Shown: piece after piece, positions 1,044 to 17,486 of the stretch | Layout of the letters: each line of letters starts with the position of its first letter | Position numbering within the stretch: the first letter of the stretch is position 1 | Virus record (IMG/VR): IMGVR_UViG_3300031251_000962 | Location: 1 to 44,833 of that record | Length of the DNA: 44,833 nt | Direction: 5' to 3' (one strand) | From: a virus | Position numbers and translations under genes: made by a program | The notes under the pieces: model-generated | Told to the model about the DNA's origin: nothing | The model's input: only the letters and a program-made list of their open reading frames with translations | Databases searched by the model: none

Positions 1044-1427
1044 TCACACGCACCCCGTTTCTTTGTGCCCGTTTTGTGACAGACGAAGCACGCTAACGAT
1101 TTCACTGGCCCGTTTAAGTGCGTCGGCAAATGTTCCAACGCGCCTCGCGTATTCCGACTGCACGGGTGTGTCTCCCGAAAAAAGCGAGTAGTTCCCGACG
1201 ATCAGTTGTTGCTCCGCTTCGCGAACTTTGTTTAGGTCACGGCAGTAGTTCGGAGGCTGTTGACCGATGGCCTGACCAGCCATGCAATAATCGTCCGGCT
1301 TCCCTTTGTAGTATTCCGATTTTACCCACGTAGGAATGTCCTGCCACTGCCCGTTGTGAAACAAGCGCGGCTTTAATTCCCATCCGCACGCAGTTGCTAT
1401 TGCAATGTTGATATCGTTTTCGGTCAT
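1044..1427 (-). CDS. Phage ABA-sandwich-like small protein
   Basis: A 127-residue protein. The start at 1427 is chosen because its ATG overlaps the integrase stop as ATGA; a longer form from 1484 would run deep into the integrase gene. The layout resembles small phage proteins of the ABA sandwich (DUF2591-like) type: an N-terminal ACGW motif, then PPNYCRDLNKVREAEQQL, then a C-terminal helix (ADALKRASEIVSVL). The function of that family is unknown. It is the last gene of the leftward integration operon, next to attL. Family assignment is by motif memory only. Confidence 0.6.
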   Translation of the reverse strand: MTENDINIAIATACGWELKPRLFHNGQWQDIPTWVKSEYYKGKPDDYCMAGQAIGQQPPNYCRDLNKVREAEQQLIVGNYSLFSGDTPVQSEYARRVGTFADALKRASEIVSVLRLSQNGHKETGCV

Positions 1428-2863
1428 GCAGATTTCCTCAATGGCGTGACGTTGGCGGCGGCTTCGCGACGGATGCCGTACCATGCGGCTGCTTGTTGCG
1501 AGGTCACCAACTCCAAATAATGTTTCTCGATCGTGGCCGGGCTGTTACCGCTCTCTTGGGCTGCCTGGTGCTTGTTGCCTTTCAATTCCGCGCAACGATA
1601 CGTGATGAAGCTGTGGCGAAGTGCGTTATCTTTCGGTTCGATGCCAACGGCGCGGCAGAGCAACGCAAATTTGCGGATGGCGATTTGCTCGCTCATCGGA
1701 ACTATACAAGCCGACTCTTCGGCAGTTCCTTTTTTGGGAACGTAATCGGCAACCCAATCGCGCAACGTTTCGTTTATCGGCACCAACCTCCGGCTGGTTG
1801 AACGTGTGGTGCGACCGCGCGTGCGTTTGCCGGTCACGTGAATGTTGCCGGTCTCCCAATTAAAATCCGTCCAACTGGTGCGGCACCGTTCAGCAGTGCG
1901 CAGGCCGCCAAAGCCGCCGGTGCTGACAAATGGCACGAGCTTGCCAAAATCTTCCCGGTCCGCATCAGTGATCGTGTGGCCGAGTTCCTTGGTCACGTCA
2001 CGACCGGCTTTATCGGTGGCAGCAACGTCCAGAATCGTCCACGTCACTTTTTTAAGCAGCGGAATCTGGCCAAGGGCGCCGCGCAAAATCTTTTCCATCT
2101 CTGCCGGTGTGTAGATGGTAACGATGGTCTCAGGCAGGATGCCGGGCGAAACTTCTGTCAGCTCGTTCCAGTCGCGCGGCAGATAACCGCGCGACTTGGC
2201 GTAAGTGAAAGCGTTTTTAACCGCGCGGATGTAATTAAGCTTGGTTTGCGACTCGACTTTGAGCGTGTCGACCCAGTCTTGAAAATCACGCGCGGCAATA
2301 TGGGTGACGTTGCATTGGAAATGCTCGGCAAACACGTCCAGACGCACGCGCAGGTCTTTAAGATGGCGATGGTCACAACGCTGCTTGGTTTTGGCCGCTA
2401 GAAATTCTCCGTTCAGTTTGCTGACCGTGATTGGGGTCACGTTGCGGTTGCGCGCGGCGTAATCGTGGCACGCGGTGATAATGAATTGCGGGTCACGCTG
2501 TGGCTGGGGCAGGGCAGTAAGAGCCGCCACGATGGTTTCAGCAATGGTGATGAGGTTGAGAGGACGCGGCAGCGCAATGGTCGCCACCTTATCTTTTGCG
2601 GCGCTGTATTCAGCCACCTGCGCATCGGTCATGGTGAGCGTGGCCGTTTGCGCGTTGGCAATCCTGCGCGCGGCGTTCTGCGCTTCGATGGTGAGTTTGC
2701 CGAGGTCAGCCGATTGTTTGCGAACGAGTTCCCCAGCCAGCCAATATTTGAGCGTCCACGATTGATAGACGCGCCCAGCCACCTTGGCAGGTGTCGGGTA
2801 AATTTTCACCGTCACCGAGCCTTCGGTGATTTCGATGGGCTTGGATTTTTTTCGGCGGTTCAT
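1424..2863 (-). CDS. int: Tyrosine-type site-specific integrase
   Basis: A 479-residue tyrosine recombinase that would integrate and excise the prophage at the tRNA-Ser site. A SAM-like core-binding region covers about residues 105-230 and the catalytic domain about 250-470. Visible catalytic residues are Arg322 (GGLRTAE), a candidate Lys346, Arg416-His417 (NALRHS, with Asn in place of the usual first His), Asn440 in place of the usual His of the GH box, and nucleophile Tyr449 (KHYLEL). These substitutions are familiar to me from Verrucomicrobiota integrases. The start lies 2 bp after the stop of a 55-residue gene, and no clear Shine-Dalgarno sequence is present, so translation is probably coupled. 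A copy of the 17-bp palindrome lies 30 bp upstream. Confidence 0.92.
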   Translation of the reverse strand: MNRRKKSKPIEITEGSVTVKIYPTPAKVAGRVYQSWTLKYWLAGELVRKQSADLGKLTIEAQNAARRIANAQTATLTMTDAQVAEYSAAKDKVATIALPRPLNLITIAETIVAALTALPQPQRDPQFIITACHDYAARNRNVTPITVSKLNGEFLAAKTKQRCDHRHLKDLRVRLDVFAEHFQCNVTHIAARDFQDWVDTLKVESQTKLNYIRAVKNAFTYAKSRGYLPRDWNELTEVSPGILPETIVTIYTPAEMEKILRGALGQIPLLKKVTWTILDVAATDKAGRDVTKELGHTITDADREDFGKLVPFVSTGGFGGLRTAERCRTSWTDFNWETGNIHVTGKRTRGRTTRSTSRRLVPINETLRDWVADYVPKKGTAEESACIVPMSEQIAIRKFALLCRAVGIEPKDNALRHSFITYRCAELKGNKHQAAQESGNSPATIEKHYLELVTSQQAAAWYGIRREAAANVTPLRKSA

Positions 2864-2865
2864 TT

Positions 2866-3033
2866 TTAACAGGAGGGCGCGGAGGAAACGGAGGTTCCTG
2901 AATCGGGAACTGAGTGACGTTTGGCGATTTTGCGAAGGGCGCGGTTAATGGCGTGGTAGAACGTGGCCCAGTCTTCAACGGTCCACTCTACTTTTGCGGC
3001 GGCTTTCCAATGATCAAGCTTCGGCTGTTTCAT
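2866..3033 (-). CDS. Small 55-residue protein between RHH regulator and integrase
   Basis: A 55-codon reading frame starting MKQPKLDHWKAAAKVEW. Its ATG overlaps the RHH regulator stop as ATGA (3030-3033), and its TAA ends 2 bp before the integrase start, so the three genes form one translational unit. The protein is basic and mostly helical (TFYHAINRALRKIAKRHS), with a Ser/Pro tail. The position and size would suit an excisionase-type or integrase-control factor, but I see no family signature. The tail residues VPDSGT are encoded by a copy of the 17-bp palindrome. Confidence 0.65.
   Translation of the reverse strand: MKQPKLDHWKAAAKVEWTVEDWATFYHAINRALRKIAKRHSVPDSGTSVSSAPSC
2894..2910. repeat. 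17-bp palindrome copy 1 (one mismatch)
   Basis: GTTCCTGAATCGGGAAC. It lies 30 bp upstream of the integrase start and inside the 55-residue gene, where it encodes VPDSGT on the minus strand. One half-site carries T in place of C. Confidence 0.8.
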
Positions 3034-3248
3034 TTTTTCTTTTTAATCGGCACCTCGTTTAGATCGATGGCGCGTGGAGTGTTTGGTGGATAAGCGCCTC
3101 GACCGGCTTCTTTTTCCCTGCGGTCAAGGTCCTCGCGAATCAGAACTTCAAGCAATTCGCTAAAGCTGTCGCAGAAACGTTTTTCCATCAGATCGCGCGC
3201 GGCATCAAGCAGGTTTGGGTTGATGCTGATTTGAACTCGTTTTTTCAA
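3030..3248 (-). CDS. Ribbon-helix-helix transcriptional regulator (leftward)
   Basis: A 72-residue protein with an Arc/MetJ-type ribbon-helix-helix fold. The strand KKRVQISINPNLL is followed by helix A (LLDAARDLMEKRF) and helix B (SFSELLEVLIREDLDRRE), with a Lys-rich tail. RHH proteins bind DNA as dimers, usually on direct repeats. It is the first gene of the integration operon and diverges from a second RHH gene at 3354. Its promoter contains two GTGTA repeats at 11-bp spacing. I infer an autoregulator or lysogeny-switch role. Confidence 0.75.
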   Translation of the reverse strand: MKKRVQISINPNLLDAARDLMEKRFCDSFSELLEVLIREDLDRREKEAGRGAYPPNTPRAIDLNEVPIKKKK

Positions 3249-3257
3249 GGTGATGAG

Positions 3258-3287
3258 GTTCTACACAATTCTTACACAGGTTGTCAA
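3258..3287 (-). promoter_or_regulatory. Leftward promoter with paired GTGTA operators
   Basis: Reading leftward, TTGACA (3287-3282) is followed after an 18-bp spacer by TAGAAC (3263-3258) as a possible -10 element. Between them, GTGTAA (3277-3272) and GTGTA (3266-3262) repeat at 11-bp spacing. The expected transcription start is within a few bases of the ATG at 3248, so the message would be nearly leaderless. The layout matches the rightward promoter at 3318-3347 step for step. Confidence 0.6.
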
Positions 3288-3317
3288 CGGCCGATTTTCT
3301 TTTTCGTAAAATAATTG

Positions 3318-3347
3318 TTGACGTTTGGTGTAATAGTTGTGTATGTT
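3318..3347 (+). promoter_or_regulatory. Rightward promoter with paired GTGTA operators
   Basis: TTGACG (3318-3323) is followed after an 18-bp spacer by TATGTT (3342-3347). GTGTAA (3328-3333) and GTGTA (3339-3343) sit at the same offsets as in the leftward promoter: TTGAC-N5-GTGTAA-N5-GTGTA. The predicted start coincides with the ATG at 3354, giving a leaderless message for the second RHH gene. This is the only strong promoter-like sequence I see for the early operon. Confidence 0.6.
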
Positions 3348-3353
3348 TGCAGC

Positions 3354-3569
3354 ATGAACAGAATTTCAGAGGGTAAAAAGGTGCGCGTGAATGTGAACCT
3401 GAGCGAGGAAGCAATTGCGATTGGCAAGCGATTGGCGCAGTCGGAATCGCGGTCATTTTCCAATTACTTGGAAACGGTGTTGCGTGCGGCTGGTAGCCCG
3501 TCTGCACCAAACCTCACGCAACCGCGCAGTGAGCGGCAACGTTCGCACAAACAAGGTGCGGGGAAATGA
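3354..3569 (+). CDS. Ribbon-helix-helix transcriptional regulator (rightward)
   Basis: A 71-residue protein from ATG 3354; a TTG start at 3315 would overlap the promoter and adds no domain. It has the RHH pattern: strand KKVRVNVNLSEE, helix A (EEAIAIGKRLAQSES) and helix B (SFSNYLETVLRAAG), with a basic tail. It is divergent from and distantly similar to the leftward RHH protein. The pair takes the place that repressor and Cro-like genes have in other temperate phages. It heads the long early operon, and its stop overlaps the next start as ATGA. Confidence 0.75.
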   Translation: MNRISEGKKVRVNVNLSEEAIAIGKRLAQSESRSFSNYLETVLRAAGSPSAPNLTQPRSERQRSHKQGAGK

Positions 3570-3892
3570 GCACCGGCCACCTTGGAAAGTCCTGCACGGC
3601 CCCGTTAACGAGCACCGATGTTTACGCGTTGGTCACATCAGTCAATCTTTCAAACCTCATCAGTTACGCATCGGCGCGGCGCGAACTGTTCGAGGCTTAT
3701 TTCTCGATCGTTTCCGAGATGCAGCCGCATACCCGGCATTTGGCGTTCCACGCCATCGCGTGTGAACTCGATTGGTCACACCGTGAAATGATTTGGGCCG
3801 CGGCTGGTTTTGAGAATCGACCGACGAGCGTTTGTGAGTTTGAACCGGCATCGCGGCGTTATGCCCGCGAAGAATCGGCGATTTCGGGCTGA
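3566..3892 (+). CDS. Unknown early protein, 108 residues
   Basis: A 108-residue protein coupled by ATGA to the RHH gene. I do not recognise the family. It is predicted largely helical (SARRELFEAYFSIVSEM; HLAFHAIACELDWSHREMIWAAAGF) with three cysteines and no clear metal-binding spacing. It lacks membrane segments and a signal peptide. As the second gene of the early operon it might be a regulator or host-takeover factor, but the sequence itself does not show that. Confidence 0.55.
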   Translation: MSTGHLGKSCTAPLTSTDVYALVTSVNLSNLISYASARRELFEAYFSIVSEMQPHTRHLAFHAIACELDWSHREMIWAAAGFENRPTSVCEFEPASRRYAREESAISG

Positions 3893-3969: not shown

Positions 3970-4347
3970 ATGAACACGATGACCCAAGAGGAGTTTTTGA
4001 ACGAGTGCCAGCGCAGATTCGGGCCGAAAGCTAAAGACTGGAAATTTGTATGCCCAGCTTGTGGCACGGTCCAGAGCGTTGGACAACTCAAGGACGCGGT
4101 GATTGCCAGTGGCGGCACCAAAGACGATGTGCACGGCTATATCGCGTTTAGCTGCATTGGCAGGTTCACACGGCAAGGCGATAAAGGAATTGCCTCAAAA
4201 CATCGCGGCGAGAAGTGGGACAAGGGCTGCAATTGGACGTTGGGCGGGCTTCTTACGATCCACAATCTGGAAGTGATCATGCCCGATGGAAAAAAGCGCC
4301 CGACTTTCGAAATAGCGGAGCCGGATGCGGAAATGCAACCGGCGTAA
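3970..4347 (+). CDS. VVA0879-family phage protein
   Basis: A 125-residue protein resembling the VVA0879 family of small phage proteins. It begins with QEEFLNECQRRFGPKAKDW, followed by a CPACG half zinc-finger-like motif, an AFSCIGR motif and a second region GEKWDKGCNW. The conserved cysteines suggest metal binding. Members are common in early regions of temperate phages, and their role is unknown. It is preceded by the hairpin at 3916-3954. An uncharacterised family, but the match to its pattern is good. Confidence 0.7.
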   Translation: MNTMTQEEFLNECQRRFGPKAKDWKFVCPACGTVQSVGQLKDAVIASGGTKDDVHGYIAFSCIGRFTRQGDKGIASKHRGEKWDKGCNWTLGGLLTIHNLEVIMPDGKKRPTFEIAEPDAEMQPA

Positions 4348-4867: not shown

Positions 4868-6340
4868 ATGGTCGACCCGCAATTTGAACAGGCCTGCGAG
4901 TATCCGGGCAAACTGGATGCTGTGGCAGTGGTTAATTCGCTCGGAAAGTATCTTAATAGCCTTGGCGTTAATCGAAAAATCAAGTGCCTCGAATGGGGCT
5001 GGAATGTTTGTGATGAGCCGGTGCTGATGAAGCAAGTTAACGAGATTCTGGATGATATCGCCAAGCGTGCCGGCATTACACCGCGCGCCGCCAGAGACGC
5101 CAGAGACGCCAGAGCCGCCAGAGACGCCAGAGACGCCAGAGACGCCAGAGCCGCCAGAGACGCCAGAGACGACACAACCGCCAGAGCCGCCATAGCCGCC
5201 ATAGACGCCAGAGCCGCCATAGCCGCCATAGCCGCCAGAGACGCCAGAGCCGCCAGAGACGCCAGAGACGCCAGAGACGCCAGAGACGCCATAGACGCCA
5301 TAGCCGCCATAGACCCCAGAGCCGCCAGAGACGCCATAGCCGCCAGAGACGCCATAGCCGCCAGAGCCGCCAGAGACGCCAGAGACGCCATAGCCGCCAG
5401 AGCCGCCAGAGACGCCATAGCCGCCATAGACCCCAGAGCCGCCAGAGACGCCATAGCCGCCAGAGACGCCATAGCCGCCAGAGACGCCATAGCCGCCAGA
5501 GACGCCATAGACGCCATAGACCCCAGAGCCGCCAGAGACGCCAGAGCCGCCAGAGACGCCATAGCCGCCAGAGCCGCCAGAGACCCCATAGCCGCCAGAG
5601 CCGCCAGAGACCCCAGAGCCGCCAGAGCCGCCAGAGACGCCATAGCCGCAATCAATGGTGCCGATGATACTATGGCTTTGCAACGTTTCGCTTCGTGGTG
5701 CATGCACGACTGGTGGTGGAATTGGGATATGTCGTATCTGTCGGCGGTTTATTTCGGCGCCAAGGAACTGAATCTGCCACAAGTGCTCGCTTGGTCTGAG
5801 CCGGTGTTTGAGGCGTTCAAAGCTGGCTGTTGGCAACTTTATTGGACTGATGAGGTCTTGTATTGGTTTGCCAAACCGACTGTGCATGTGGAGCAGATGC
5901 CAGGCGGTGGCCGCCGGATGCACAACGATAAGTATGCCGCGTTGGAATCTGACATTGAGAATCTTTATTTCTGGCACGGTGTGATGGTGCCTGCGTTTGT
6001 TGTGGTTCGACCTGATTGGATCACGGTCAAACACATCGAAACTGAGGAAAACGCCGAGGTGCGCCGGATTATGATCGAGCGGTATGGGATGGCGCGTTAC
6101 CTGGTTGATTCAGGGGCGAAGGAAATTCACCATGACGATTTTGGCACTCTCTATAGCAAGGAGATTCCCGGCGATGAACCGCTGGTGATGGTTAAGGTGG
6201 TTAACTCAACCGCTGAACCTGACGGGAGTTTCAAGGATTATTTCTTACGCGTGCCGCCGACGGTCACCCGCGCACGGGAAGCTGTGGCGTGGACGTTCGA
6301 TGTTCCCGAGGAACAATACGAACCTGTTTTGCAAACCTAG
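4868..6340 (+). CDS. DUF6745-like protein with long A-R/I-D/A tripeptide repeat insert
   Basis: A 490-residue protein of unknown function. An N-terminal helical part (residues 1-71) is followed by a low-complexity run of about 64 tripeptides, mostly ARD, AIA, ARA, AID and PRA (residues 72-263). A conserved C-terminal domain then covers about 265-490. The C-terminal end matches the DUF6745 pattern: LYSKEIPGDEPLVMVKVVNST, then PDGSFKDYFLRVPPTV, then TAREAVAWTF-like TRAREAVAWTFDV. It contains many Trp and His residues (CMHDWWWNWD). The repeat is encoded by a 9-bp minisatellite, so unit gain or loss keeps the frame. It is paired with the YRQGDVLI gene upstream. Confidence 0.75.
   Translation: MVDPQFEQACEYPGKLDAVAVVNSLGKYLNSLGVNRKIKCLEWGWNVCDEPVLMKQVNEILDDIAKRAGITPRAARDARDARAARDARDARDARAARDARDDTTARAAIAAIDARAAIAAIAARDARAARDARDARDARDAIDAIAAIDPRAARDAIAARDAIAARAARDARDAIAARAARDAIAAIDPRAARDAIAARDAIAARDAIAARDAIDAIDPRAARDARAARDAIAARAARDPIAARAARDPRAARAARDAIAAINGADDTMALQRFASWCMHDWWWNWDMSYLSAVYFGAKELNLPQVLAWSEPVFEAFKAGCWQLYWTDEVLYWFAKPTVHVEQMPGGGRRMHNDKYAALESDIENLYFWHGVMVPAFVVVRPDWITVKHIETEENAEVRRIMIERYGMARYLVDSGAKEIHHDDFGTLYSKEIPGDEPLVMVKVVNSTAEPDGSFKDYFLRVPPTVTRAREAVAWTFDVPEEQYEPVLQT
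5081..5650 (+). repeat. 9-bp minisatellite, about 64 units, inside DUF6745-like gene
   Basis: Tandem 9-bp units of the form GCC-AGA-GAC, with variants GCC-ATA-GAC, GCC-ATA-GCC, GCC-AGA-GCC and CCC at the third or first codon. Almost every unit changes only at a few positions, and larger blocks of units recur (for example the ATA-GAC-CCC-AGA blocks near 5306, 5420 and 5516). All Arg codons in the array are AGA and all Ile codons ATA, unlike the flanking coding sequence. The opposite strand is open in all three frames, which is a by-product of the repeat. Confidence 0.95.
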
Positions 6341-8889: not shown

Positions 8890-9684
8890 ATGAAAAATCT
8901 ATTCCGACAAAATTTGAACGATGGCGGGTCGATGTTTTGGCATGGCCGCGCCCGCTGGCATTCACGATTAGAGCCGTTTTGCGAATGGTTGTTTGGCCGC
9001 GCGGCTACGACGTTCCACTTGCAGTTGTGGTTTGGTCATGGTGACAACGAAGATGGTGTGATGCTCTCCTTTGGCCTGCCGTGGCTGTTTTCGGTCTATA
9101 TCGGCTTGGAAGGGGTTTTCCGCTGCAAAGAGTGTTACTCCGGCGTTGGCATCCACAGTTCCGCAATTTGGTTTTATCCGTTGCCATACTCGATGAGTAC
9201 GACCACGAGCGACCCGTGGTATCGGCACACGTATTGTTGGAACTTTCCGTGGCAGCTTGATTGGTGGTCAACAGAAGTGTTGGAGCACAAAGCGAATCTT
9301 CCGTGTCTCGCGCAAACGGTGTGGTCTGAAAATAAAAAGAACCGCCGGCGCGGTTTCGATATGGAAGGAATGCGCACGAGGGCCGAAGCGGAGCTTTCAG
9401 TGTCGCAGGACTATCCTTACACCTACAAACGCAAGAGCGGAGAGATTCAAGCTCGCACCGCGACTGTGCATGTGGTGCGCATGACCTGGCGCGCGCGATG
9501 GTGGCCGATCATTCCGCGACAGATGGTCAGGACTTCGATTGAGGTCAAATTTTCGGACGAAGTTGGCGAAGGTATCGGCACGTGGAAAGGCGGCTGTATC
9601 GGCTGTGGTTACGACATGCTGCCCGGTGAAACACCTTTGGAGACGTTGCGGCGGATGGAGCGCGAAAGAATTTTCAAACGCTGA
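8890..9684 (+). CDS. Conserved phage protein of unknown function
   Basis: A 264-residue protein rich in Trp, Phe and Tyr. It has the pattern of a phage family I have seen but cannot name: LSFGLPWLFSVYIGLE, HSSAIWFYPLPYSMSTTTSDPWYRH and a C-terminal KMVRT-like segment (PRQMVRTSIEVKF) followed by GCIGCGYDMLPGETP. It is predicted as beta-rich and soluble in spite of its hydrophobic patches. The start lies 4 bp after the J-domain gene. No catalytic motif is evident. Confidence 0.6.
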   Translation: MKNLFRQNLNDGGSMFWHGRARWHSRLEPFCEWLFGRAATTFHLQLWFGHGDNEDGVMLSFGLPWLFSVYIGLEGVFRCKECYSGVGIHSSAIWFYPLPYSMSTTTSDPWYRHTYCWNFPWQLDWWSTEVLEHKANLPCLAQTVWSENKKNRRRGFDMEGMRTRAEAELSVSQDYPYTYKRKSGEIQARTATVHVVRMTWRARWWPIIPRQMVRTSIEVKFSDEVGEGIGTWKGGCIGCGYDMLPGETPLETLRRMERERIFKR

Positions 9685-14049: not shown

Positions 14050-14322
14050 TATGAGCACTGAAAGTCAACCCATGGGAATCCGCGACACGATCAAAGCCGT
14101 TGTGCAGGTCGTGACCACGCGCAAACTGCCCAATCCGCTGGCGCAAACTCCAAAAGACACCTCGCGCGCCGCACTGGTCAAAGAGCTGAACGATTGGTGG
14201 ATGAACGCGCGCAAGTTTTGGGAACCGGTCTTTAAAGAGATCGAAGAGGATATGATTTTCGCGGGCGGCAAGCAGTGGCCTGACGGTGTGCTCGGAGCGG
14301 ACGGCAGTTTGCCCTATCAAGC
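14050..14322 (+). repeat. Direct repeat copy 1 of portal gene start (273 bp)
   Basis: By eye, every base from 14050 to 14322 matches 15107-15379, with an offset of 1057 bp. The copy starts one base before the portal ATG and ends inside codon 91. The flanking bases differ at both ends. The perfect match across 273 bp means a very recent event, ongoing gene conversion or an assembly join. Confidence 0.95.
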
Positions 14323-14419
14323 GTTTCTGACAGGGCCGTGCGCGCCGTGGAGCGGCATCGTGGTCGATAACGTCTGGCACATCCTCACCATTTGGGCTGT
14401 TTGGAAATTTCTCGTATGA
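14051..14419 (+). pseudogene. Truncated duplicate of portal protein N-terminus
   Basis: A 122-residue frame. Residues 1-91 are identical to the start of the portal protein at 15108. The sequence then switches to an unrelated hydrophobic tail (FLTGPCAPWSGIVVDNVWH and ILTIWAVWKFLV). It lacks the portal wing, stem and crown, so it cannot be a portal. If expressed it could compete in portal assembly. Its stop overlaps the next start as ATGA, so the tail belongs to the inserted cassette. Most likely a by-product of the insertion. Confidence 0.8.
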
Positions 14420-15106: not shown

Positions 15107-15379
15107 TATGAGCACTGAAAGTCAACCCATGGGAATCCGCGACACGATCAAAGCCGTTGTGCAGGTCGTGACCACGCGCAAACTGCCCAATCCGCTGGCG
15201 CAAACTCCAAAAGACACCTCGCGCGCCGCACTGGTCAAAGAGCTGAACGATTGGTGGATGAACGCGCGCAAGTTTTGGGAACCGGTCTTTAAAGAGATCG
15301 AAGAGGATATGATTTTCGCGGGCGGCAAGCAGTGGCCTGACGGTGTGCTCGGAGCGGACGGCAGTTTGCCCTATCAAGC
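15107..15379 (+). repeat. Direct repeat copy 2 of portal gene start (273 bp)
   Basis: Identical to 14050-14322. This copy is continuous with the full portal gene. Together the two copies bracket 14323-15106, which holds three small genes and the foreign tail of the truncated portal copy. Confidence 0.95.
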
Positions 15380-17486
15380 CGATATCACCCAGCGGCACTT
15401 GATGCAGAGGGAAGCGCAGCTTTACGCCAAAAACCCCACGTTCGAAGCGCGCCGCCGTGAGCGTCTTGAATTTCAGGTGTGGGACGAAACCGAAGAGAGC
15501 TTGAACGGCGCACGCGCCATTCTGCAGCAGTACGCCCCACAGATTGACGCGGCAAAAGCGGCCAAACTGTTGCTTAGCCACGTGCAGCCTGGTGTGGCTT
15601 TGCCGCCGGATGTGACGCCGGATCATATTGCCGCGGCTCAGCGTGTCGTTGAAAGTGTGCCGCCTGAAGTCGATAGCGCGCAGATGATCATTGAGGATTA
15701 CGAGCGCGGCATGAAGCAGCGGGCTTACGAGGAGGCGTTTGGCAACACGTTGCGGTTGCTTTTCCAAAACCAAATCGACGCGCAAAACCCGCCGTTCAAA
15801 CAGCAGGCCAAACAACTGGTCACGCGCGTGGACACGTGCAAGGTCGGTTACGTGAAACTTTTGATGCGCCGCGAATTGAGCGGCACACCAACGGCCACGG
15901 CCATTAAGACGGGGCCGGATGAATTACTAGCTTCTATCCGCGCCAAAGTCATGGCCATGAGCGAGCCGGACGCCAAAAAGGACAGTGGCGACATGGCTGA
16001 GCTTGAAATGATGTTCAAGCAGTATCAGGCGCAAAAGGCAGAGGAACAATCGGAGGGCGAAGTTGACGACGAAGGTGTGGTGTTTGATTTCCTTCCCGCG
16101 ACGTCAGTCGTCGTGGATCCTAACTGCCGGAGTTTGCGCGGCTTTGTCGGCTGTCAGCGTATCTGTCACGAAATGCTGATGAGCGTAGCCGACGTCGAAC
16201 GCGAGTTTGGCGTCAGTCTGCGCGACACAGGTGTGCGGCTCTATTCTCCGGATGGCAAGAAGAACGACAATGGCGGTCCATCGGAAGCGCGGCAGAACAG
16301 CGACGGTGAAATGCCGTTGCTCGAAAATAAAGCGTTGGTCGGGTTCATCTACGATCGTAATTCCGGCAACGAATATGTCGTGTGTGATGGGGTGAAAGAT
16401 TTCCTGCGCGAACCCAAAGCGCCTGAGCCTGATTGGGATTACTTCTGGCCAATTCTACCGCTGGTGTTCCGGCCAATCGAGGTCGAGAAAAACGACCCGA
16501 AAAAGGGCGTGACCTGCTACCCCAAAAGTGACGTGCGGCTACTGCGCCCGATGCAAAAAGAGAAGAACCGGTCTGGCCAAGAGTTTATCGAAGCGCGCAT
16601 CGCGTCACGAGCATGGTGGGTTGCAGTCGCGTCAAAATTTCAAAAGGGCGATTTGGCCAAGCTGTCAACAACCCGCCGCACTAACGAGGTGATTCTAGCC
16701 GAAATGTTGGCACCTGGTGAAAAGCTCTCTGATATCCTCATGGCTGGGCCAGTTCCGGATATTAAGCCCGAAGTGTTCAATGACGGCCGCTTTACTCAAG
16801 ACGTGCTGGAAGTAACGGGAAGCCAACAGGCCGATCTGGGGCCGACCAACGCCGACACTGCCACGCAATCACGCATTGCCGCTCAATCGCGGTTGCAATC
16901 CAGCGACTCGAACATCGATGACCTCGAGGATTTTTTCACGATGCTGGCCAAAGGCGCGGGACTTCTGCTCATGACGATGCGCGCGGAAACGGTAAAAAAG
17001 AAAGTTGGCGATGGCGCGGTTTGGCCGGAGCTGACCATGCAGGAGTTTGCGCAGAATGTCTGGTTGCAGGTGCAGGCCGGGTCCAGTGGGCCGCCGAATC
17101 GGCAGCTTGATTTGGAGATTATGCAGAAGGCTCTGCCGTTGCTGATTCAACTGCCCGGCATCTCGCCGGAGTTGATTGCTAAAATGACGTTACGTGCGGC
17201 TGACCCACGAATGAGCCTGGCTGATTTCTATCAAAAAGGTTCGCCGAGCATTCTAGCGCTGAATGCGGCTGCCGGTGGCGGCCAGAAACAAGCGCCCGTT
17301 CCACCGCCCAAAGCGAGCATCAATTACAAGGACGCGCCGCCGTCAATCCAACGGCAGATGGAACAAGCTGAGGGCTACAAACCCGCTGATGAAATGAAGG
17401 GCACGGTGCATATGGACGCGTTGAAAAAAGAGCCCAATGCGCCCGCTGCCAAACCAGAACCGGCGCCAGCGGCAGCGGCCAGCTAG
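15108..17486 (+). CDS. Portal protein
   Basis: A 792-residue portal of the podovirus size class, forming the dodecameric DNA gate at the capsid vertex. The N-terminal NDWWMNARKFWEPVFKEIEEDMIFAGGKQWP, the QREAQLYAKNPTFEARRRE motif and a stem region with FVGCQRICHEML are typical. An acidic loop (QKAEEQSEGEVDDEG) precedes a VFDFLPATSVVVDP core. A long helical C-terminal barrel ends in a Pro/Ala-rich tail. The order TerL, portal, scaffold, capsid is standard. The first 272 bp are duplicated upstream. Confidence 0.88.
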   Translation: MSTESQPMGIRDTIKAVVQVVTTRKLPNPLAQTPKDTSRAALVKELNDWWMNARKFWEPVFKEIEEDMIFAGGKQWPDGVLGADGSLPYQADITQRHLMQREAQLYAKNPTFEARRRERLEFQVWDETEESLNGARAILQQYAPQIDAAKAAKLLLSHVQPGVALPPDVTPDHIAAAQRVVESVPPEVDSAQMIIEDYERGMKQRAYEEAFGNTLRLLFQNQIDAQNPPFKQQAKQLVTRVDTCKVGYVKLLMRRELSGTPTATAIKTGPDELLASIRAKVMAMSEPDAKKDSGDMAELEMMFKQYQAQKAEEQSEGEVDDEGVVFDFLPATSVVVDPNCRSLRGFVGCQRICHEMLMSVADVEREFGVSLRDTGVRLYSPDGKKNDNGGPSEARQNSDGEMPLLENKALVGFIYDRNSGNEYVVCDGVKDFLREPKAPEPDWDYFWPILPLVFRPIEVEKNDPKKGVTCYPKSDVRLLRPMQKEKNRSGQEFIEARIASRAWWVAVASKFQKGDLAKLSTTRRTNEVILAEMLAPGEKLSDILMAGPVPDIKPEVFNDGRFTQDVLEVTGSQQADLGPTNADTATQSRIAAQSRLQSSDSNIDDLEDFFTMLAKGAGLLLMTMRAETVKKKVGDGAVWPELTMQEFAQNVWLQVQAGSSGPPNRQLDLEIMQKALPLLIQLPGISPELIAKMTLRAADPRMSLADFYQKGSPSILALNAAAGGGQKQAPVPPPKASINYKDAPPSIQRQMEQAEGYKPADEMKGTVHMDALKKEPNAPAAKPEPAPAAAAS

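Follow-up and report, generated by a model that had tools for sequence, protein, structure and literature searches.

Genes at the divergent locus

The window, i.e. the whole stretch of 44,833 nucleotides of viral DNA from IMG/VR analyzed here, contains two small genes transcribed divergently from a gap of 105 bp (3249-3353), which the initial annotation had given as 106 bp. RHH1 (3030..3248, minus strand; 72 aa, TTG start) heads the integrase operon and RHH2 (3354..3569, plus strand; 71 aa, ATG start) heads a rightward operon, and the two are proposed below to encode a CI-like and a Cro-like repressor, respectively. The left operon is tightly packed. RHH1 is joined by an ATGA overlap to a small ORF of 55 aa taken from the ORF list (2866..3033, minus strand), directly after which comes the third gene, a tyrosine integrase of 479 aa (1424..2863, minus strand; Pfam PF00589, E=2.2e-6; PHROG integrase, E=7.5e-17). 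On the other side an early gene, likewise from the ORF list (3566..3892, plus strand), overlaps the RHH2 stop. Neither the 55-aa ORF nor this early gene has a match to any Pfam or PHROG family. Left/right matches did not exceed 12 bp, and no attachment-site repeat was recognized.

Further along the early region, a 264-aa protein (8890-9684) matches the CBASS inhibitor Acb3 (Pfam PF25187, E=6e-32) and is likely encoded by an anti-defense gene. A long in-frame repeat (DARDARAARDAIAAI...) at 5050-5650 lies within a 490-aa ORF (4868-6340) and is open in several frames. The first 94 codons of a portal-like gene (15108-17486) are found twice, 14051-14332 repeating 15108-15389 about 1 kb upstream with 98% protein identity, which from the sequence would be a recent partial duplication or an insertion remnant.

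Related phages and a probable exchange of repressor cassette

Relatives were reached through the window terminase (12215) and an alignment of the L015 and L023 integrases. A divergent RHH pair is also present in three other phages, L015, L104 (located through the integrase alignment) and L002 (reached from an early gene that shares 70% identity with window 3970-4347). L015 and L104 have the same arrangement as the window, with the integrase, a small ORF and RHH1 on one side and RHH2 on the other, and terminase and portal homologues are common to these three phages. The ORFs between RHH1 and the integrase in L015 (3783-3920) and L104 (1369-1632) are small and apparently membrane-spanning, and the 55-aa ORF in the equivalent position of the window looks unrelated to them. 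In L002 the pair sits close to a contig end and no integrase can be seen; the left operator there shares bases with the probable GTG start codon.

Peptide searches of viral contigs with the two RHH proteins and the integrase of the window returned no relatives, and terminase matches past the nearest group added no divergent RHH pair. L007 has one early gene in common with the window, and the switch is absent from the stretch of it that was examined. The L015 integrase had no matches in the phage and plasmid collections and L015 RHH1 none in the phage collection; 199 genomes from the phylum of the Phycisphaerae bin were without such an integrase.

The integrase of L023 is homologous to that of L015 (52%), and a Cro/CI-type helix-turn-helix (HTH) cassette (L023:3299-4000) stands in place of the RHH pair, the HTH protein filling the RHH1 slot. 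Among the five phage records searched, an HTH_3 match occurs only in L023, at this slot, and is absent from the window, L015, L104 and L002. Because L023 has a Cro/CI-type HTH protein there, the RHH1 slot can be regarded as a repressor slot, and the comparison of sequences suggests that a repressor cassette was exchanged at one locus.

RHH identity of the two proteins

Taken singly, neither window protein reaches the curated Pfam threshold of an RHH superfamily (CopG/Arc/MetJ) profile, the matches being weak for RHH1 (CcdA-type RHH) and below the cut-off for RHH2 (RHH_5). A profile built from all eight switch proteins matched CopG-family structures (E=2.8e-6) as well as ParG, Arc and Mnt. The AlphaFold model of RHH2 has a confident core with two high-pLDDT helices (18-30 and 35-46), and a Foldseek search with it gave CopG and Arc as top matches (probability 0.96-0.98). 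The RHH1 model shows two predicted helices in a pattern like that of RHH2, at low confidence (pLDDT 62). These are preceded by the β-strand KKRVQISI, the strand being unassigned in the monomer models of both proteins. On the strength of these profiles and models, both flanking genes look like RHH-type genes. Like the window proteins as predicted, CopG/Arc-type RHH repressors have a β-α-α fold, probably dimeric, with a strand that reads the major groove; they differ from the window proteins in function.

Mirrored promoters and predicted message starts

As the initial annotation had it, the motif TTGAC-N5-GTGTAA-N5-GTGTA occurs once on each strand between the two genes; the exact matches are at 3262-3287 (minus) and 3318-3343 (plus). 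With up to 3 mismatches allowed there are still only these two sites in the 44.8 kb (0.19 expected; two sites in 1 of 100 shuffles), and the GTGTAA-N5-GTGTA core with at most 1 mismatch is confined to the intergenic gap (0.15 expected in the window). Outside the gap, further copies of the operator are no more frequent in the window than chance predicts. Within the intergenic region the left and right sides match across GTTGACNNNNNGTGTAANNNNTTGTGTA, and their 27-bp alignment (GTTGACAACCTGTGTAAGAATTGTGTA / GTTGACGTTTGGTGTAATAGTTGTGTA) gave p=0.002 by shuffling when the -35 was counted and p=0.0035 when TTGAC was masked.

The left promoter/operator (3258..3287, minus strand) is an exact motif match comprising the -35 TTGACA (3287-3282), GTGTAA (3277-3272) and GTGTA (3266-3262); a possible -10, TAGAAC (3263-3258, minus strand), was picked by eye and is under the promoter-scan threshold. 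The right one (3318..3347, plus strand) comprises the -35 TTGACG (3318-3323), GTGTAA (3328-3333) and GTGTA (3339-3343), and its -10, TATGTT (3342-3347, plus strand), scored 9/12 in the promoter scan with a spacer of 18 bp.

In the window the -35 lies 39 bp from the start codon of RHH1 and 36 bp from the RHH2 ATG. Upstream of the RHH2 ATG, TTGAC starts at 36, 37, 38 and 37 bp in the four phages, an arrangement absent elsewhere among 104 ATGs scanned near the starts of window ORFs of at least 100 aa. On the RHH1 side TTGAC is 39 bp upstream of the start in both the window and L104, and the left -35 differs from TTGAC in L015 and L002; the corresponding distances in L023 are 36 and 40. Since the -35 sits 36-38 bp before every RHH2 start codon, the messages would be leaderless, with predicted transcript starts at the start codons or no more than about 4 nt away, and this conserved distance lends support to the earlier suggestion of nearly leaderless messages. 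The TTG start codon of RHH1 is unusual in a leaderless message. Leaderless cI and cro messages have been documented in phage PY54 (PMC4488713).

Shared operators and matched predicted DNA-contact strands

To compare the two sides of each gap we took the best ungapped left/right match with TTGAC masked and obtained p by shuffling. The tests were devised after the window motif had been seen, and with this reservation a shared motif was found in each of the four independent phages: GTGTAAGAATTGTGTA/GTGTAATAGTTGTGTA in the window (p=0.0035), ACCAATGGGTGACAATGG/ACCGGTGGGTGTCATTGG in L015 (p=0.015), GGTGTATAACACC/GGTGTAAAACACC in L104 (p=0.0065) and TGCACGTGTGAA/TGCTCGTGTGAA in L002 (p=0.030), with a Fisher combination over the four gaps of p=1.3e-5. 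In random and AT-rich control windows p<=0.03 was reached in about 3%, as expected, and the same test gave p=0.41 for mnt-arc of Salmonella phage P22 and p=0.098 for the L023 HTH switch. Compared across phages, every left side scored highest against the right side of the same phage (own-pair scores of 12, 10, 11 and 10 vs. 4-7 for the others), and this pairing was the top of 24.

Both the sequence of the motif and its offset vary among the four phages. Neither GTGTAA nor the mirror-symmetric spacing, which the initial annotation had proposed to compare in relatives, is kept, each phage having a motif and offset of its own. The shared motif, differing as it does among phages, is therefore not a general promoter element. 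The two operator copies of L104 differ in their distance from the -35, and for this reason the symmetric spacing of the window is best seen as a local detail. The 13-bp palindrome of L104, GGTGTAWAACACC, has three sites in the 33.6-kb record, clustered at the switch in a span of about 230 bp, and allowing one mismatch adds no other. The third of these, a further copy of the operator (GGTGTAAAACACC), lies at about 735-750 inside the 3' end of RHH2 with TTGACT upstream, and is possibly an internal operator or promoter.

The β-strands of the two proteins, in registers set through alignment and homology to Arc, are likewise alike within each phage. The aligned RHH1/RHH2 strands are KKRVQISI/KVRVNVNL in the window, EPRISVRV/EPRVSCRV in L015, KKFVGAWL/GKFIGGYI in L104 and NVPLSLRI/SIPLQVRV in L002, those of P22 Mnt/Arc being DPHFNFRM/MPQFNLRW. 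At the three outward positions, which we take to be equivalent to Arc Q9, N11 and R13, the predicted residues are R-Q-S/R-N-N in the window (1/3 identical), R-S-R/R-S-R in L015, F-G-W/F-G-Y in L104 and P-S-R/P-Q-R in L002. The true pairing of strands ranks first of 24, this being the floor of the permutation (1/24) because there are only four independent phages, and first of 120 when P22 Mnt/Arc is added. Full-length similarity of RHH1 and RHH2 is also highest for the true pairs; the match could therefore stem either from joint selection or from a duplication in each lineage. Taken together, the motifs found on both sides in each phage and the agreement of contact residues within each phage favor the idea, already put forward from the window alone, that the shared operators are used by both RHH proteins.

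A proposed CI/Cro-like switch of RHH repressors

We propose, with a probability of about 0.64, that the region constitutes the lysogeny (immunity) control of a temperate phage, a CI/Cro-like switch of two paralogous RHH repressors as read from the sequence. RHH1, leading the integrase operon, and RHH2, leading the early genes, are transcribed divergently. Downstream of the -35 and ahead of the -10/start, their promoters carry the same pair of repeats, spaced 11 bp apart, to which both proteins would bind as dimers via their similar β-strands. With transcripts predicted to start at or near the start codon, a dimer occupying the inner repeat would mask both the -10 and the start site. RHH1 on the right operator would silence the early genes in the lysogen, as CI does, and RHH2 on the left operator would silence RHH1 and the integrase during lytic growth, as Cro does; each could also limit its own expression, and mixed RHH1-RHH2 dimers may be a component of the switch. 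We infer that both proteins bind and repress and that they exclude each other, as well as the state favored by each, the start sites and also induction, no cleavage or sensing domain being visible.

Divergent repressor genes on the integrase side and the early side, as in CI/Cro-type switches, are present in the window, L015 and L104, and the same operator occurs in both promoters. The lambda-type CI/Cro and TP901-1 CI/MOR systems resemble the proposed switch in having divergent promoters and two repressors acting on common operators, and in opposing an integrase-side to an early-side repressor. Lambda-type CI and Cro are HTH proteins, whereas both window proteins appear to be RHH, which places the latter outside this type in the strict sense; the window also differs in having just two repeats on each side and no large oligomerization or cleavage domain. 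P22 Mnt/Arc is the nearest precedent for a divergent RHH pair. Like the window, the annotated immI region of P22 has two divergent RHH repressors, facing promoters and operators in the gap, and the β-strands of Mnt and Arc are alike, but Arc and Mnt have separate operators of different sequences, in contrast to the shared motif of the window. P22 immI is a secondary immunity region that governs an antirepressor and lies inside the late operon (PMC8022706), and is not a switch between integrase and early genes; beside RHH2 no antirepressor was identified, the next gene having no family match. The earlier idea of a Cro/CI-like switch built only from RHH proteins is supported by the shared operators and the HTH repressor in the L023 slot, while the divergent RHH pair as such has its precedent in P22 Mnt/Arc. 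The openly readable literature searched contained no description of a phage switch in which paired RHH proteins have operators in common.

One possible alternative is that one RHH protein alone binds the operators and represses both promoters, the other acting elsewhere, e.g. as an integration/excision accessory or in replication. A single binder with sites in both promoters would suffice for shared operators, and RHH1 is in the same operon as the integrase. In the archaeal virus SSV1 the small RHH protein F55 silences early promoters by binding tandem repeats, which are present at a number of promoters, that of F55 among them, and it maintains lysogeny by itself (PMC5569661). Unlike the proposed switch, F55 is described as a single regulator with no second RHH protein to oppose it at those sites, and its promoters are archaeal. 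The match between the predicted contact strands of both proteins within each phage would not be required of a lone repressor, although recent duplication could also produce it, and we regard this explanation as rather unlikely.

The repeats could also be promoter elements of the host (e.g. a variant -10), in which case the similarity of the two sides would reflect RNA polymerase preference, and the inner GTGTA does overlap the -10 while TTGAC is an ordinary -35 sequence. This is highly improbable considering that sharing is significant even with TTGAC masked, that the motif varies among phages yet stays common to both sides within each, and that the third L104 copy is within the coding end of RHH2. 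That RHH1 or RHH2 is the antitoxin of a toxin-antitoxin pair, autoregulating at its own promoter, is scarcely credible. Antitoxins often contain RHH domains, and CcdA, RelB, HicB and CopG antitoxin are among the weak family matches, but neither the 55-aa ORF nor the gene that follows RHH2 matches any family, no toxin family is found among neighboring window ORFs, no toxin candidate is seen next to the RHH pairs, and the position equals that of the CI-type HTH repressor of L023.

Returning to the switch of two RHH repressors, we consider the chances about even that the four loci represent a family of all-RHH paired immunity cassettes that can replace, and be replaced by, Cro/CI-type HTH cassettes at one locus, and whose strands and operators changed together to give distinct immunity specificities. 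The proposed switch suggests that CI/Cro logic can be rebuilt in another DNA-binding fold with proteins of about 55-100 residues. With one operator and two agreeing strands per phage, these loci form a small natural collection for studying RHH recognition. They would aid in decoding how RHH strands read DNA, and would help to predict superinfection immunity groups where standard HTH searches miss phage repressors.
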